Shown here: one piece after another, positions 2,116-8,580 of the stretch
Numbering within the stretch: the stretch's first letter is position 1
How the letters are laid out: each line of letters opens with the position of its first letter
Assembly (NCBI GenBank): GCA_031269165.1
Contig: JAISZQ010000248.1
Location: 1-42,129 of the forward strand
Origin: Spirochaetaceae bacterium
Lineage (GTDB): Bacteria > Spirochaetota > Spirochaetia > Treponematales > Breznakiellaceae
Direction of reading: 5' to 3'
DNA length: 42,129 nucleotides
Translations under genes and position numbers: made by a program
The notes under the pieces: model-generated
Told to the model about the DNA's origin: nothing
The model's database searches: none
What the model saw: only the letters and a program-made list of their open reading frames with translations

Positions 2116-3678
2116 ATGTTTGTGTATTCGTATATTCGTTTCGGGTTTGACGGGATTTTGGTTCGCATTGAGGCCGATTTGCGGCGGGGGATTCCGGGCG
2201 TGGACATCACGGGGCTTGCTTCCGGCGCGGTGCGGGAGGCGCGGGAACGGGTGCGTTCGGCGTTTCGCAACTCGGATTTCCGGTTTCCGCAGGAACACGT
2301 CCTCATCAACTTGGCGCCGGCGGAGGTGAAGAAGGAGGATGCGGCCCTTGACCTGCCTATCGCGCTGGTGATGCTCGCTGCGTCGGGACAAGTCCCCCCG
2401 GTCGGCGGTATCATGGCGCTCGGCGAACTTGAGTTGTCGGGGCGGCTGCGTCCGGTGAAAGGCGTATTGGCGGCGGCGGCGCGGGCCTTGAACGAGGGGG
2501 TCGACTCGATGATTGTTCCGTCCGCGAACCTGAAGGAGGCGGCGCTTCTCATGCCGGGGAAGGTTGCCGGGGTGGAAAACCTGAAGGAAGCGGCGGCGGC
2601 CTTCTTATACCACGCGAAACAGGGGTGTTTTCCGGCCTCCCCATCCGGCGGCGACACGGTCGCGGGAACGCCGCTCTATACCGGGGATTTTGCCGAGGTT
2701 CGGGGACAGGAACGCTTCAAGCGGGTGCTGGAGATTGCGGCGGCGGGCGGGCACAACGTGCTGGTGTTCGGGCCGCCGGGAGCGGGGAAGACGATGCTTG
2801 CCCGCCGGTGGACCACGATCTTTCCCGACCTTGACCCGGAGGACACCGTGACCGTGACGCGGCTCTACAGTCTTGCCGGACTCCTCTTCGGAGACGAACC
2901 CGGCTCGCCCAACGGGCTGGCGCGGAGGCCGTCCTTCCGTTCTCCGCACCACACGGCTAGTGCCGAGGGAATTCTGGGCGGCGGGAAGCACCTCACGCCC
3001 GGCGAGGCGAGTCTGGCCCATGCCGGGGTGCTTTTCCTCGATGAAGCGCCGCAGTTTCGGGTCAACGTGCTTCAGGCCCTGCGCGAGCCGCTTGAAGAGA
3101 AGCGGGTGCGGATTGCCCGCGCTTCCGGCCAAGTACAACTGCCCGCCGATTTCCAGTTGCTGCTCGCGGCCAATCCCTGTCCCTGCGGCAAACTGGGTAC
3201 GGCGGCGGGGGACTGCTTCTGTTCCGGCGAGGAGATCTACCGGTACTGGCGGCGGTTCGGCGGAGCGCTCCTCGATCGGGTGGAGTTGCGGACTGCGGTA
3301 CGCGCGCCGGACATCGACGCGCTTGCGGCGGGCGGGAACAGCGGGGAATCCAGCGCCGTGATACGCGAGCGGGTAACCGGCGCCGTTGCCGCCGGGAAAG
3401 ACCGGTTCAACCATGCGGGTAGCCGGGTCCGGCGGAATGCCGGGATGCCGCCGCCGCTCATCGACCAGCACTGCGCTCTCGACGACCATGCGCGGAGGGC
3501 GTTGAAAACGGCGGTTGAAAAACTGGGGCTTTCGGGCCGCGCCTACCACGGCATCCTGCGGGTTTCCCGGACGATCGCCGACTTGGAAGGCGGGGATGCG
3601 ATTAGCGCGGAACACATTCTCGAAGCCGTCCAGCACCGCCGCACAGGCGATGACCCTTACGACGTGTTTCATGCGTAA
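2116..3678 (+). CDS. comM: YifB/ComM family Mg-chelatase-like AAA ATPase
   Basis: N-terminal GIPGVDITGLASGAVREARERVRSAFRNS, Walker A GPPGAGKTMLARR, Walker B LFLDEAPQF, AANPCPCG. Confidence 0.93.
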   Translation: MFVYSYIRFGFDGILVRIEADLRRGIPGVDITGLASGAVREARERVRSAFRNSDFRFPQEHVLINLAPAEVKKEDAALDLPIALVMLAASGQVPPVGGIMALGELELSGRLRPVKGVLAAAARALNEGVDSMIVPSANLKEAALLMPGKVAGVENLKEAAAAFLYHAKQGCFPASPSGGDTVAGTPLYTGDFAEVRGQERFKRVLEIAAAGGHNVLVFGPPGAGKTMLARRWTTIFPDLDPEDTVTVTRLYSLAGLLFGDEPGSPNGLARRPSFRSPHHTASAEGILGGGKHLTPGEASLAHAGVLFLDEAPQFRVNVLQALREPLEEKRVRIARASGQVQLPADFQLLLAANPCPCGKLGTAAGDCFCSGEEIYRYWRRFGGALLDRVELRTAVRAPDIDALAAGGNSGESSAVIRERVTGAVAAGKDRFNHAGSRVRRNAGMPPPLIDQHCALDDHARRALKTAVEKLGLSGRAYHGILRVSRTIADLEGGDAISAEHILEAVQHRRTGDDPYDVFHA

Positions 3679-3864
3679 ATTGGGTCATGGTACTGTTTTG
3701 CTCGATAAGATAACCCGGCTAACGGCGCGTCCCTCTGGAGACGCGTCCACCAAAAGGCGCGTTGTCGTGACGCGGGTGCCGTTGGGTGAGCCTCGCGTCC
3801 TTCCGGCAATCGTACCGTTTGGTTTTGGAGGATGGGGCCAACTGCTATACTTCAAGGAGAAACC

Positions 3865-4776
3865 ATGATAAGAATCAGCGAAACCGATGATCCGGTCAAT
3901 ATTTGCTATGACAATGTGTTCAAGGCGGTGTTCACGAAAGACTCGCCTGAATCGCGGGGCGCGCTGTCAAAACTGCTTTCCGCCGTCATAGGCCGCGAGC
4001 TGACCGTGATTTCCATCACCGCCAACGAGCCGGCCCCCGACAGCATCCGGGACCGGCAGATACGCTTTGACATGAACTGCAGGGCGGACGACGGGAGCCG
4101 TTCAAACGTGGAAATGTCGCTCAATCCCGACAAGTTCGAGCCTGTCCGCATGGAGTTCCACGTGGGGAGGCTGTTCACCGGGCAGGACATACGGGGCAAG
4201 GATAAGTCTTATGGCAGCCTGAAGGCCGCTTACCAGATAGCGTTTCTGGTAAACGGGCGGTTTTTTGCTGGAGATGACTTCCTGCATCATTTTGAGTATT
4301 ATGACAAGGAGCGGGGCGTCCCGCTTGGGGGCCGGACGCGCGTCATCACGCTGGAACTTGCCAAGCTGGATTATCTGCTTGACCGGCCGGTTGCGGAAAT
4401 GACCGCGCCGGAACGGTGGGCGTTTTACTTCCGGTTCCTGACAGACAAGGAAAAACGGGATAAAATAAACGAAATAATCGAGTACGAGGAGGGCATCGCT
4501 ATGGCGAGCGAAGTGTTAATGACGATAAGCAGGGACGAGATCGAGCGCATGCGGCTGGAAAGCGAATTCAAATACGAACTGGACACCCAAAGCCGTATAA
4601 CCTACGCCAGACAGGAGGGTCGGCAAGAGGGTCGACAAGAGGGCTGGCAAGAGGGTATACGGAAAGGCGAACAGAAGGGTTGGCAGGAAGGCCAACTGGA
4701 GATACTAAAACTCTTGGAATCAGGCTATTCGGCTGAGGATCTCAAAGAACGCCTAAGAGCGGAACGCGGAAGATAA
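3865..4776 (+). CDS. Rpn family recombination-promoting nuclease / PD-(D/E)XK nuclease family putative transposase
   Basis: N-terminal DNVFKAVFTKDSPESRGALSKLLSAVIGREL, core RQIRFDMNCRADDGSRSNVEMSL, C-terminal RQEGRQEGWQEG tail; SD aaggag before ATG 3865. Confidence 0.85.
   Translation: MIRISETDDPVNICYDNVFKAVFTKDSPESRGALSKLLSAVIGRELTVISITANEPAPDSIRDRQIRFDMNCRADDGSRSNVEMSLNPDKFEPVRMEFHVGRLFTGQDIRGKDKSYGSLKAAYQIAFLVNGRFFAGDDFLHHFEYYDKERGVPLGGRTRVITLELAKLDYLLDRPVAEMTAPERWAFYFRFLTDKEKRDKINEIIEYEEGIAMASEVLMTISRDEIERMRLESEFKYELDTQSRITYARQEGRQEGRQEGWQEGIRKGEQKGWQEGQLEILKLLESGYSAEDLKERLRAERGR
4501..4776 (+). other. Candidate internal ORF (C-terminal segment of the Rpn protein, 91 aa)
   Basis: AGGAGG at 4487-4492, 8 nt before in-frame ATG 4501 (MASEVLMTIS...). 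The same start context opens both downstream duplicates. Confidence 0.5.
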
Positions 4777-4793
4777 ACGAGGAGGGCATTGCG

Positions 4794-5057
4794 ATGGCAA
4801 GCGAAGTGTTAATGACGATAAGCGGGGACGAGATCGAGCGTATGCGGCTGGAAAGCGAATTCAAATACGAACTGGACACCCAAAGCCGCATAACCTACGC
4901 CAGACAGGAGGGTCGACAAGAGGGCTGGCAAGAGGGCATGCGGAAAGGCGAACAGAAGGGTTGGCAGGAAGGCCAATTGGAAATACTAAAACTCTTGGAA
5001 TCAGGCTATTCGGCTGAGGATCTCAAAAAACGCCTAAAAGTGGAATGCGGCAGATAA
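4794..5057 (+). CDS. Free-standing duplicate of the Rpn C-terminal segment (87 aa)
   Basis: MASEVLMTISGDEIERMRLESEFKYELDTQSRITYARQEG..., near-identical to the tail of the upstream Rpn gene; AGGAGG at 4780-4785. Confidence 0.7.
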   Translation: MASEVLMTISGDEIERMRLESEFKYELDTQSRITYARQEGRQEGWQEGMRKGEQKGWQEGQLEILKLLESGYSAEDLKKRLKVECGR

Positions 5058-5073
5058 ACGAGGAGGCATTGCG

Positions 5074-5289
5074 ATGGCGAGCGAAGCGTTCATGACGATA
5101 AGCAGGGACGAGGTCGAGCGTATGCGGCTGGAGAGCGAATTCAAATACGAACTGGACACCCAAAGCCGCATGACCTACGCCAGACAGGAGGGCATACGGG
5201 AAGGCGAACGGAAAGGCCAATTGGAGATCCTAAAACTCATTAAGGCGGGTTGCTCATTGGAGGAGATAAAGGCACGTCTTCGGGAATAG
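5074..5289 (+). CDS. Second free-standing duplicate of the Rpn C-terminal segment (71 aa)
   Basis: MASEAFMTISRDEVERMRLESEFKYELDTQSRMTYARQEGIREGERKGQLEILKL...; AGGAGG at 5061-5066. Confidence 0.65.
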   Translation: MASEAFMTISRDEVERMRLESEFKYELDTQSRMTYARQEGIREGERKGQLEILKLIKAGCSLEEIKARLRE

Positions 5290-5353
5290 GCACTCATTCC
5301 CTGTTCATCCTTCGTCATTGCAAAAGACCACCCGTCATGGTGAGCGGACATCT

Positions 5354-5462
5354 CGTCATTGCGAGCGGAGCGAAGCAATCCAGCGGGGCATTTCCTGCCG
5401 GGATTGCTTCGTCGCTAATGGCTTGGCTACCGACGGTAGCTCGCCGCCTCCTCGCAATGACG
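5354..5462. repeat. CGTCATTGCGAG...CTCGCAATGACG dispersed inverted repeat, copy 1
   Basis: cgtcattgcgagcggagcgaagcaatcc...ggattgcttcg...cctcgcaatgacg, long inverted repeat. Confidence 0.8.
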
Positions 5463-5514
5463 GGCTCATCGGCCTGTTCGTATCGTTCGTGGTTCAGTTT
5501 CCATTATGCGTTTA

Positions 5515-5537
5515 CCATTTTCCATTCCCCGAAGGGG
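5515..5537. repeat. Inverted fragment of the CCCCTTCGGGGAATTGAAAATGG repeat tail
   Basis: ccattttccattccccgaagggg is the reverse complement of the tails at 10714 and 29802 apart from one base. Confidence 0.6.
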
Positions 5538-5676
5538 TATGTGGTTCTTTCTTCAAAAAAACGCATCGGCAACGTTTTGTGCCGTTTTGCCTTTGTTTTT
5601 CGACAAAATATGCCGATGATAGATAGAGGGTCGGTACGCAAAAAAGATTTTAGGACTGTCCCAAGAGGGGTCTCGC

Positions 5677-8580
5677 ATGAAGAAGCTTTTTGTTGTCTGT
5701 TTTATATTAATTTTTTGCTCAACGAGCGTTTTCGCCGGGAGAAAGAAGCCGGAAGCGCCGAAAGAGACGCCTCCTCCCGTGGCCGAACAGACCGAGCCAA
5801 CGCCCGCGCCGGTGGTGGCCCCGCTTACTCCGGCCGACGAGGTCTGGGAACTTATCCAGAGCGGCAGGATAAACGAAGCGCAGGCCAAGTTTCTCGCTTT
5901 GGAGAACCCGGAGGCGGTCGATTCCCGTGGACGCACGTTTCTTCATCAGGCAGCAGACGCGGCCAACCCCCCGATCGCGGATTTCTTTTACCGGCAGGGA
6001 GTCCCCGTTGACACGAAGGACAACGAAGGGAGGACGCCCCTCAGTATCGCGACCGACACGATGAACAGCGAGATGGCCGCTTTTTTTGTCAAACAAGGAG
6101 CATCCATCCACAACACGACGCCGCAGGGGAACACGACGGCGACGAAGGCCATTGCTCAGAACAACACGACTTTTCTCAAAGCCATTCTCACCCCGGCTTC
6201 GCTTGCGTCATCCGACGCGACCGGACGCACGATCATCCACCTCGCCACAGAACAGGGCAAGACGGCGGCTTTGGATACGATCATCGAAGCGGCCGGGTTT
6301 GACTTTATTCCCCAGATCGTCAACAAGCGCGATGCCGCCGGAAAAACGGCGCTTGATATTGCCTACGCGCACCGGGATTCCGAAGCTCATGCGGACTGCG
6401 CGCGTTCTCTCATCATGGGCGGCGGCGTCTCTGCCGATCCGTTTAACAACTATTTTGCGCCGGCCGTCAAGAGTTTGAACTACAATCTTAGGTCGGAAAA
6501 CGGGATGTCCCCGCTTCATTACGCGGTACAGGAAGGCTATACCGGGTATATTCGCTTTCTCTTGAAAAAAAACGCCGACCCGAACATCACCAATGCGGAT
6601 GGGGAAACGCCGTTGCATACGGCGATGAAACGCGGTGAAATTGCGGTCATGAAAATGGTTATTGACGGCGGAGCGAAGGTTGACGTGCAGGACGGCAGGG
6701 GTAATGCTCCGATGCACATCGCCGTACCCGAAGAGATTCATGCCGAGGCGCTTTCCGTCCTGCTGGCTTCCCGCGCCAACCCCAACCTCCGTGACGAAGC
6801 GGGCAATACGCCGCTTCAGTCTTTCGTACTTTTGAATCGGCCGCCGCTCGTCATTGAGACGTTATTGAAAGGCGGCGCGAGTGTTACCGCCCAGAACAAC
6901 GAGGGGAAAACCGCGCTTTTCATCGCCGTTGAGGAAAAACGGATTACGCTCATTCCGGTGCTGTTGGCCTATGGCTCGGATATTTTTTCGGTTACGGCGA
7001 CCGGGGTAACCCCATTTGGAAAGGCGCTCGCCGACAACAGTCCGGTGCTTATGGGGCTCATAACCGAGAAAACGGTTCGGGCAATCGACACCGAAGGCAA
7101 CACCCCGTTGCTCGTGGCGATGAAATCCGAGGCGAACATTGACATCATCCGGGCAATCCTTGAAAAGCAGGCGGAGGTAAACGCGCAAAACAAGGAGGGG
7201 GATAGCGCCCTCCATGTCGCGGTACGCAATAATCAGGCGGATATTGGCGCGCTCCTCTTGGAAAGCGGCGCGAATATTTTTCTTGCCAACGCGCGAAGTG
7301 AAACGCCCCTTTTTCTTACTTTTTACGCGAGCGCGGGAAGTCAGCGGGCGGGCCGCGAAATCCGTATGTTTATGCTGAACCCCGCAGTGATGTCCTCCCG
7401 CGACAGTCTGGGAAATACCGTTCTTCACCACGCGACGCTGTGGAGGATCGACTCGGTGATTCAGGTGATTGTCGAGCGCGGCGCGAATACGGAGGCGGTC
7501 AATATTTCGGGGGAAACGCCGCTTTTCATCGCGGTTAAGGCAAACGCGGCATCTACCGTCCGCGCTCTGCTTCAGGCGGGCGCGTCTCTTACCGGCCGTG
7601 ATTCGCTGGGGAACACCGCGCTACATACGGCGGTACGTTCCAACGCGCCTCAGGCGGCGGAAGCCTTGCTTGACGCGAACATCAATATTGACGCATACAA
7701 CCTCTATGGACAGACACCGTTGCATGACGCGGTTCGTCTTGGCGCCTACGACGCGCAAGTTATCCTTGTCCGGCGGGGCGCGAATATTGAAGTGCGGGAC
7801 AACGAAGGCAACACGCCGCTCCTTCTCGCCGTCCGCATGGGGAATTTTCGTTCCGCCGAACACATCATCACGTCGGGCAGCGACATTAACACCCGGAACA
7901 ACTCAGGCGACACCGCCCTGCACCAAGCGGTACGAGACGAACGGAGCGATATTGTCGCGTTGTTACTGCAAAACGGCGCGTCAATCTATTCGCAGAACGC
8001 GGACGGGGACTCTCCGTTTACCATCGCGCTTTCCTTTAGCGACGACCGAAATCAGAGCGGCACGTCCCGCATGGTTTCAACGCTGTTGACCACCGATCGT
8101 TTGAGAATCGCGGACGACGAAGGCCGCAGCCCGTTGCATATCGCGGTTTTGCGGAACATGAGTGTTGCCAAACTGGAGATCATCGTCAATCAGGGCGGCC
8201 GGGTCAACTCGGTTGAACGCGAGGGCCGCACCCCGCTCCGCCTCGCCGTCGATATGGACAACTGGGAGGCGGCAAAGTACCTCGTCGGCGCGGGTAGCGA
8301 TGTATTTGCCGTCGCCCGTGACGGCCGCAGTCCTGCCGAAATCGCCCTCGGACGCGGCACGACAGCCGTTCGCGCCGTTTTTAGCGGCAAGGCGATCACC
8401 GCCCGCGATTCGTCCGGCAACACGGTACTCCACTACGCCGCCCGGAACGGCAACCGCGACTTGGTGGGCCTTCTCTTGGAACTCGGCGCCGACCGCACCA
8501 TCCGCAACACCGCCGGAGAGAGCGCGGCGGACATAGCGGAACGGTGGGGAAACACGGCAGCGGGCAATCTGTTACAATAA
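5677..8580 (+). CDS. Exported ankyrin-repeat protein
   Basis: 967 aa; signal peptide MKKLFVVCFILIFCSTSVFA; proline-rich linker; about 25 ANK repeats (G.T.LH.A......iv..LL..GA). Confidence 0.92.
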   Translation: MKKLFVVCFILIFCSTSVFAGRKKPEAPKETPPPVAEQTEPTPAPVVAPLTPADEVWELIQSGRINEAQAKFLALENPEAVDSRGRTFLHQAADAANPPIADFFYRQGVPVDTKDNEGRTPLSIATDTMNSEMAAFFVKQGASIHNTTPQGNTTATKAIAQNNTTFLKAILTPASLASSDATGRTIIHLATEQGKTAALDTIIEAAGFDFIPQIVNKRDAAGKTALDIAYAHRDSEAHADCARSLIMGGGVSADPFNNYFAPAVKSLNYNLRSENGMSPLHYAVQEGYTGYIRFLLKKNADPNITNADGETPLHTAMKRGEIAVMKMVIDGGAKVDVQDGRGNAPMHIAVPEEIHAEALSVLLASRANPNLRDEAGNTPLQSFVLLNRPPLVIETLLKGGASVTAQNNEGKTALFIAVEEKRITLIPVLLAYGSDIFSVTATGVTPFGKALADNSPVLMGLITEKTVRAIDTEGNTPLLVAMKSEANIDIIRAILEKQAEVNAQNKEGDSALHVAVRNNQADIGALLLESGANIFLANARSETPLFLTFYASAGSQRAGREIRMFMLNPAVMSSRDSLGNTVLHHATLWRIDSVIQVIVERGANTEAVNISGETPLFIAVKANAASTVRALLQAGASLTGRDSLGNTALHTAVRSNAPQAAEALLDANINIDAYNLYGQTPLHDAVRLGAYDAQVILVRRGANIEVRDNEGNTPLLLAVRMGNFRSAEHIITSGSDINTRNNSGDTALHQAVRDERSDIVALLLQNGASIYSQNADGDSPFTIALSFSDDRNQSGTSRMVSTLLTTDRLRIADDEGRSPLHIAVLRNMSVAKLEIIVNQGGRVNSVEREGRTPLRLAVDMDNWEAAKYLVGAGSDVFAVARDGRSPAEIALGRGTTAVRAVFSGKAITARDSSGNTVLHYAARNGNRDLVGLLLELGADRTIRNTAGESAADIAERWGNTAAGNLLQ

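Follow-up and report, generated by a model that had tools for sequence, protein, structure and literature searches.

An RpnL-RpnS-like locus with two additional tail genes in a Spirochaetaceae bacterium

The window analyzed here, a 42,129-nucleotide stretch of DNA from a Spirochaetaceae bacterium, contains a gene of the Rpn family (rpnL) with a predicted internal start for its C-terminal tail, followed directly by two further genes that encode such a tail alone. This three-unit repeat is far beyond chance, and the locus is a real feature that resembles the RpnL-RpnS loci of E. coli, with two extra tail genes; the likeness to E. coli is an anatomical one. Our leading explanation, which we hold with roughly even confidence, is that it represents a module of the RpnL-RpnS type, in which the free tails most likely provide other inhibitor specificities or replacement tails for the nuclease gene, and less likely a greater dose of the same inhibitor. 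The features of the locus are as follows:

3672..5552, no strand: block not aligning beside the comM or the ankyrin gene in G001 (comparison with a same-genus relative)
3854-3859, upstream of rpnL: Shine-Dalgarno (SD) AAGGAG of rpnL itself
3865..4776, + strand: rpnL, full-length PDDEXK_2 (Rpn family) protein, 303 aa (PF12784 match)
4067..4119, + strand: predicted catalytic core D69, E83-M84-S85, with D16 upstream (alignments)
4438..4466, + strand: promoter-like site within rpnL, CTGACA-17-TAAAAT (consensus match only)
4486..4493, + strand: internal Shine-Dalgarno GAGGAGGG (sequence, codon conservation)
4501..4776, + strand: predicted intragenic RpnS, 91 aa, 6 four-residue repeats, C-terminal type A (in-frame ATG)
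4621..4692, + strand: four-residue repeats of rpnL, RQEG RQEG WQEG IRKG EQKG WQEG
4780..4785, + strand: SD AGGAGG of the first free tail gene
4794..5057, + strand: first free tail gene, 87 aa, 5 four-residue repeats, type A
5061..5066, + strand: SD AGGAGG of the second free tail gene
5074..5289, + strand: second free tail gene, 71 aa, 2 four-residue repeats, C-terminal type B

A repeat search recovered three direct copies of the tail unit in the window, starting at 4484, 4777 and 5057; over 184 nt compared without gaps, unit 1 is 89% identical to unit 2 and 74% identical to unit 3. The tandem units, the AGGAGG-ATGGC starts, the MASE(V/A)(L/F)MTIS opening of all three units and the in-frame internal start described in an earlier note on this DNA are all present. 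That note had put the unit at about 290 bp, repeated twice; the number of copies stands, but the copied unit measures ~280-293 bp, and the last of the three is shorter, carries fewer four-residue repeats than the others and differs in its C-terminal segment. Inside rpnL, the ATG at 4501 shares the reading frame of the gene and is preceded by GAGGAGGGCATCGCT, while the starts of the first and second free tails are preceded by AGGAGGGCATTGCG and AGGAGGCATTGCG respectively, the gap between SD and ATG being one base less in the second. Both tail-only ORFs (4794-5057 and 5074-5289) are intact and retain their ribosome sites. The genes are separated by only 16-17 nt, the SDs that follow the internal start are strong, and as only a few bases lie between each stop codon and the next SD, the three tails appear to be linked in translation. 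Collapse of identical reads was rejected as a cause of the repeat, since the three units are not identical and are located within a contig of 42 kb.

The rpn block is neighbored by comM (2116-3678) on one side and an ankyrin-repeat gene (5677-8580) on the other. In the same-genus genome G001 the block at 3672-5552 is absent from both flanks within the reach of its contigs, the flanks being on two contigs. As regards the terminal inverted repeats of an insertion sequence, the repeat search, which covered long repeats, showed none on either side of the block. An intergenic repeat with GTCATTGCGAGCGGAGCGAAGCAATCC occurs at 5313-5416, immediately 3' of the tails, with several further occurrences close to another tail array of the same genome (C311; L016).

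Sequence profile comparisons indicate that the rpnL product is an Rpn-type PDDEXK protein, in agreement with the family assignment in the earlier note. Its nuclease part matches the Pfam profile PF12784 (PDDEXK_2; E=1.2e-24, 87.8 bits) above the cut-off of 27.4, but falls under the cut-off of 52.1 for the NCBIfam profile TIGR01784 (E=8e-12, 45.5 bits); these profiles belong to the "Rpn family recombination-promoting nuclease/putative transposase" group.

Several lines of evidence point to strong sequence selection on the internal start at 4501. The internal Met is present in 65/65 homologues, and GAG is used for the two Glu residues encoded by the SD in 52/58 and 55/60 genes (90-92%), versus 39% for upstream Glu codons of the same genes (binomial p ~1e-15 and ~1e-17, with relatedness ignored). 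A control that shares the relatedness of the SD columns is provided by ranking 15 conserved Glu columns by their GAG content: the two SD columns rank first and second, and the next reaches 67%. Furthermore, where Glu-Glu-Gly has been replaced by Glu-Gly-Gly, four of the five variants read GAG-GGA-GGx, i.e. the protein is changed and GGAGG is retained. The SD is likewise retained on nearly all tail copies in the window's genus and in G019, a genome from another genus of the same family. Both the sequence and this evidence of selection are consistent with an in-frame internal start whose ribosome-binding site would yield the C-terminal tail, as the earlier note had proposed. In E. coli, rpn genes also possess an internal transcription start for a short mRNA (Zhong et al. 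2023, PMC10327210). A sigma-70-like site, by which we mean a consensus match only, scores at least 9/12 in 17/65 genes, with its -35 element starting exactly 63 nt 5' of the internal ATG and a 17-nt spacer. The window's site scores 10/12, that of the paralogue C228 reads TTGACA-17-TAAAAT, and in 7 loci the site beats synonymous-codon shuffles at p<=0.01. The site is not general, being missing from most G019 genes.

The closest precedent comes from E. coli, where translation of the Rpn tail from an internal start yields an inhibitor of the full-length protein, and where RpnS also occurs as a separate gene, namely ypaA 3' of rpnE and a copy 3' of rpnC, which are of independent origin; the YpaA product has been detected (Zhong et al. 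2023, PMC10327210). As free-standing downstream RpnS genes are thus already described from E. coli, the arrangement is not new in kind. The earlier note's notion of an amplified internal inhibitor survives in that the tail-only ORFs represent extra copies of the internal product, with ribosome sites that are mostly intact, but the idea itself was anticipated by that study (PMC10327210). As in ypaA, the tail-only ORFs of the window lie directly downstream with their own SD and a start matching the internal ones; in K-12 the same AAAAGGAGAGATTAATGACTATTGC is found inside rpnE and ahead of ypaA, and the same start is repeated. The window's locus resembles rpnE-ypaA and rpnC-rpnCS in having an internal SD and start in a unit repeated directly 3' as a small ORF, in its varying repeat number, in duplication independent to each lineage, and in the linkage of copy loss to tail swap or fusion. 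According to Zhong et al. 2023 (PMC10327210), RpnS can be lost through deletion or fusion, and in the E. coli strains FDAARGOS_1250 and CFT073, the two examined strains without ypaA, rpnE ends in a ypaA-type C-terminus. The K-12 rpnE-ypaA stretch is matched in 5,391/5,426 E. coli genomes, with at least 80% of it covered at one place in 4,749. The E. coli loci differ from the window in having one copy rather than two and a PF04754-type Rpn with an intact E-x-Q, and in belonging to a different phylum. The RpnA, RpnB and RpnP2 L/S pairs of E. coli share the intragenic tail product and the repeat-containing dimerization helix; inhibition is demonstrated for them, whereas we infer it in the window, and no extra tail genes have been described for them. 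ypaA (NC_000913.3 2357816-2358001) is annotated as a pseudogene in K-12 despite its reported product, and in many E. coli records it is labeled "hypothetical protein, missing N-terminus".

To this precedent may be added the other loci in which tail-only copies follow an rpn gene, a search for which the earlier note had proposed; these were found in the same genome, in G019 and in other assemblies. We retrieved 79 loci, nearly all from Treponema or other Spirochaetaceae/Spirochaetia assemblies, for which a termite-gut origin is a reading of the isolate names only. A downstream tail copy is present in 8/62 assessable full-length genes and lacking in 54/62. Within the window's genome, C228 has rpnL, one intact tail and one frameshifted tail; C311 has a tail, an intact tail and a stub, its rpnL being cut by the contig end with the tail complete; and C244, a contracted array, has the end of rpnL and a stub. 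In G019, tail copies occur at C73, C65 (plus a stub) and C2, and the junction starts at a more 5' point of the gene than it does in the window's genus. L107 and L109 (from one Treponema MAG), L137 and L146 (labeled Fibrimonadaceae) also possess tail copies, with differing junctions and varying decay: the L109 copy has stops and no start, and the L107 copy runs on without an SD. To judge by the differences among these junctions, the tail may have been duplicated separately at least four times in this clade. Among the other loci, L154 (G019:C73) has two full-length rpnL genes in tandem before the free tail, and G019 as a whole encodes more than 10 near-identical rpnL paralogues with different tails. 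In L162, L179, L175, L123 and L126 the nuclease frame is broken and the tail unit is still open; the tail may outlast the nuclease in these cases. Close rpnL relatives at L138 and L146 come from assemblies labeled Clostridiales and Candidatus Fibrimonadaceae, of the same kind of metagenome series, and their placement reflects either horizontal transfer or a binning error.

Comparison of the tails reveals a mosaic structure. Between the window's rpnL and its second free tail, pS is 0.14 over the first 38 codons and 0.90 over the C-terminal 24 codons; in the former stretch, a single nonsynonymous change separates the first free tail from that of rpnL. The two C-terminal types of the window recur across C228, C311 and C244. 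In ten G019 paralogues the nuclease parts are 90-96% identical and the C-terminal segments 48-97%, the two being uncorrelated (Mantel r 0.02). At its C-terminal segment, the free tail of C73 shows 100% DNA identity to the C65 rpnL. The C244 rpnL carries the type B tail, the type found elsewhere on downstream tails, with only a stub after it, a layout that would be expected after loss of an intervening unit. This mosaic pattern, together with the ypaA-type rpnE ends of the two E. coli strains, fits recombination within arrays that might move tails onto the nuclease gene.

The same instability allows another reading, doubtful in our view but the strongest of the alternatives, according to which the copies are recombination debris: tails would duplicate by repeat slippage, lack a function and be lost again, the intact ones being recent. 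The frameshifted third unit of C228, the stubs in C311, C244 and G019 C65, the L107 and L109 copies described above and the occurrence of a copy in just 8/62 genes are in line with this, as is a relaxed pN/pS in the window's genome, where the pooled value for rpnL versus its own tails over the first 38 codons is 0.40, versus 0.18 between rpnL tails of different loci. Against it stand the two intact ORFs of the window with their retained SDs, the detection of YpaA in E. coli (PMC10327210), the C311 rpnL tail, which differs from a free tail by 0 non-synonymous and 2 synonymous changes, and a pooled pN/pS of 0.04 in G019, though this last value may include time spent inside rpnL. Taken together, the pN/pS values, stubs and frameshifts indicate high tail turnover and at best moderate constraint in the window's genome. 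Decay of the tails, which the earlier note had held to speak against its proposal, is thus seen in the third unit of C228, the C311 and C244 stubs and L109, but not in the two tails of the window.

A different alternative concerns the nuclease itself. The positions D11, D63, E82 and Q84 mutated in RpnA (Kingston 2017, PMC5350276) were mapped to D16, D69, E83 and S85 of rpnL by motif, not by joint alignment. Of the signature D...D...E-x-Q/K, rpnL keeps D16, D69 and E83, which are invariant in alignment A1, and has Ser as the third residue. Ser, Thr or Cys occupies this position in 65/65 full-length clade members, setting the clade apart from the PF12784/TIGR01784 family, and more distant Rpn paralogues of the same genome have Gln. 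Because the catalytic Gln is replaced, the nuclease activity of RpnL, which would be expected from its family, is uncertain. It might be argued that this E-x-S/T clade is no longer a nuclease but a DNA- or protein-binding oligomer, with the tails modulating assembly rather than toxicity; the uniform substitution, next to Gln in paralogues of the same genome, favors this. We consider it improbable, given the invariant acidic residues and the observation that RpnA Q84A is still toxic and SOS-inducing, though Q84K is neither (Kingston 2017, PMC5350276), so that loss of the Gln alone does not mean a dead enzyme. The AlphaFold model of RpnL (pLDDT 74.6) has a mixed alpha/beta core and a long C-terminal helix (223-285) that holds the repeats, followed by a short last helix. 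Foldseek comparison of this model with the PDB gave no match at E<=0.001, and the PD-(D/E)XK enzymes EcoT38I, EndoMS and EcoO109I appear only among its weak matches; the tail model (pLDDT 69.9), compared for the RpnAS fold (PDB 7TH0), gave no Foldseek match. A PDB sequence search with the RpnL profile returned chance-level matches only, and a scan of viral contigs with the RpnL alignment gave no confirmed relatives.

As in RpnL-RpnS proteins, the long tail helix bears hypervariable four-residue repeats, and their numbers bear on what the free tails are for. In the window rpnL has 6, the first tail 5 and the second 2, and the repeat number is unequal in 7/7 pairs with a readable unbroken RpnL frame. 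Counts or lengths are also unequal in C228, C311, G019 C73, G019 C65 and L146; in the sole matched pair, G019 C2, rpnL is split by a frameshift. E. coli records with both genes have unequal counts in 11/11 cases (six distinct combinations); in K-12, RpnE and YpaA are one repeat apart. As the repeats are hypervariable and chance mismatch is common, these data show only that matching is not maintained, and for this reason the proposal that mismatch is selected for was dropped. For RpnC of E. coli, inhibition was abolished when one partner alone was extended by a single four-residue repeat (PMC10327210). The unmatched repeats weigh against a dosage role, which we regard as the least probable of the alternatives, in which free tail genes would add more of the same inhibitor for tighter control of the linked RpnL: the close spacing, the strong SDs and the near-identity in protein of the first tail to that of rpnL over 38 codons would suit it, but it needs copies compatible with the linked nuclease, and the second tail is moreover of a different C-terminal type. 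Of the earlier note's suggestion of a dosage or specificity escape, the first half is accordingly disfavored, and the second can be reconciled with the data.

Taken together, the arrays, the unmatched repeats, the mosaicism of the tails and the E-x-S/T clade favor different specificity or a reservoir of tails over dosage. Under our preferred RpnL-RpnS type reading, full-length RpnL would be a nuclease, as judged by its family, and translation from 4501, where selection on the start is apparent, would yield the tail alone (RpnS), whose long helix would pair with the RpnL tail and, by analogy with E. coli, hold the nuclease inactive. Tandem duplication of the tail unit would then have added two tail genes, probably cotranscribed with it on one short mRNA. 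These free tails could be inhibitors of a differently matched RpnL (paralogues, former or incoming versions), and could donate replacement tails to rpnL via recombination within the array; other specificity appears most likely because the repeat numbers differ (6 versus 5 and 2). A more elaborate form of this idea, which we offer tentatively and think rather unlikely as it stands, is that the tandem tails constitute a recombining repertoire of antitoxin specificities, in which silent or expressed cassettes immunize the cell against differently tailed Rpn proteins and can be swapped onto rpnL. If true, a tail swap onto rpnL would change toxin and inhibitor in one step, and the same logic would also explain E. 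coli rpnE-ypaA.

What is new here is a spirochaete clade in which Ser, Thr or Cys takes the third catalytic position, the arraying of tails in twos or more, the apparently independent origin of tail copies at least four times in this clade, and the mosaic tails themselves. Free inhibitor copies derived from the Rpn tail appear to arise recurrently, far from E. coli and in arrays, and they are generally unmatched in repeat number to the adjoining nuclease. The purpose of downstream RpnS copies, a question not previously asked, thereby becomes testable, by setting YpaA against its own RpnE or an RpnE with another tail. If YpaA inhibits only the differently tailed RpnE, the intragenic toxin-inhibitor pair would possess an inherent means of altering toxin and inhibitor at once.
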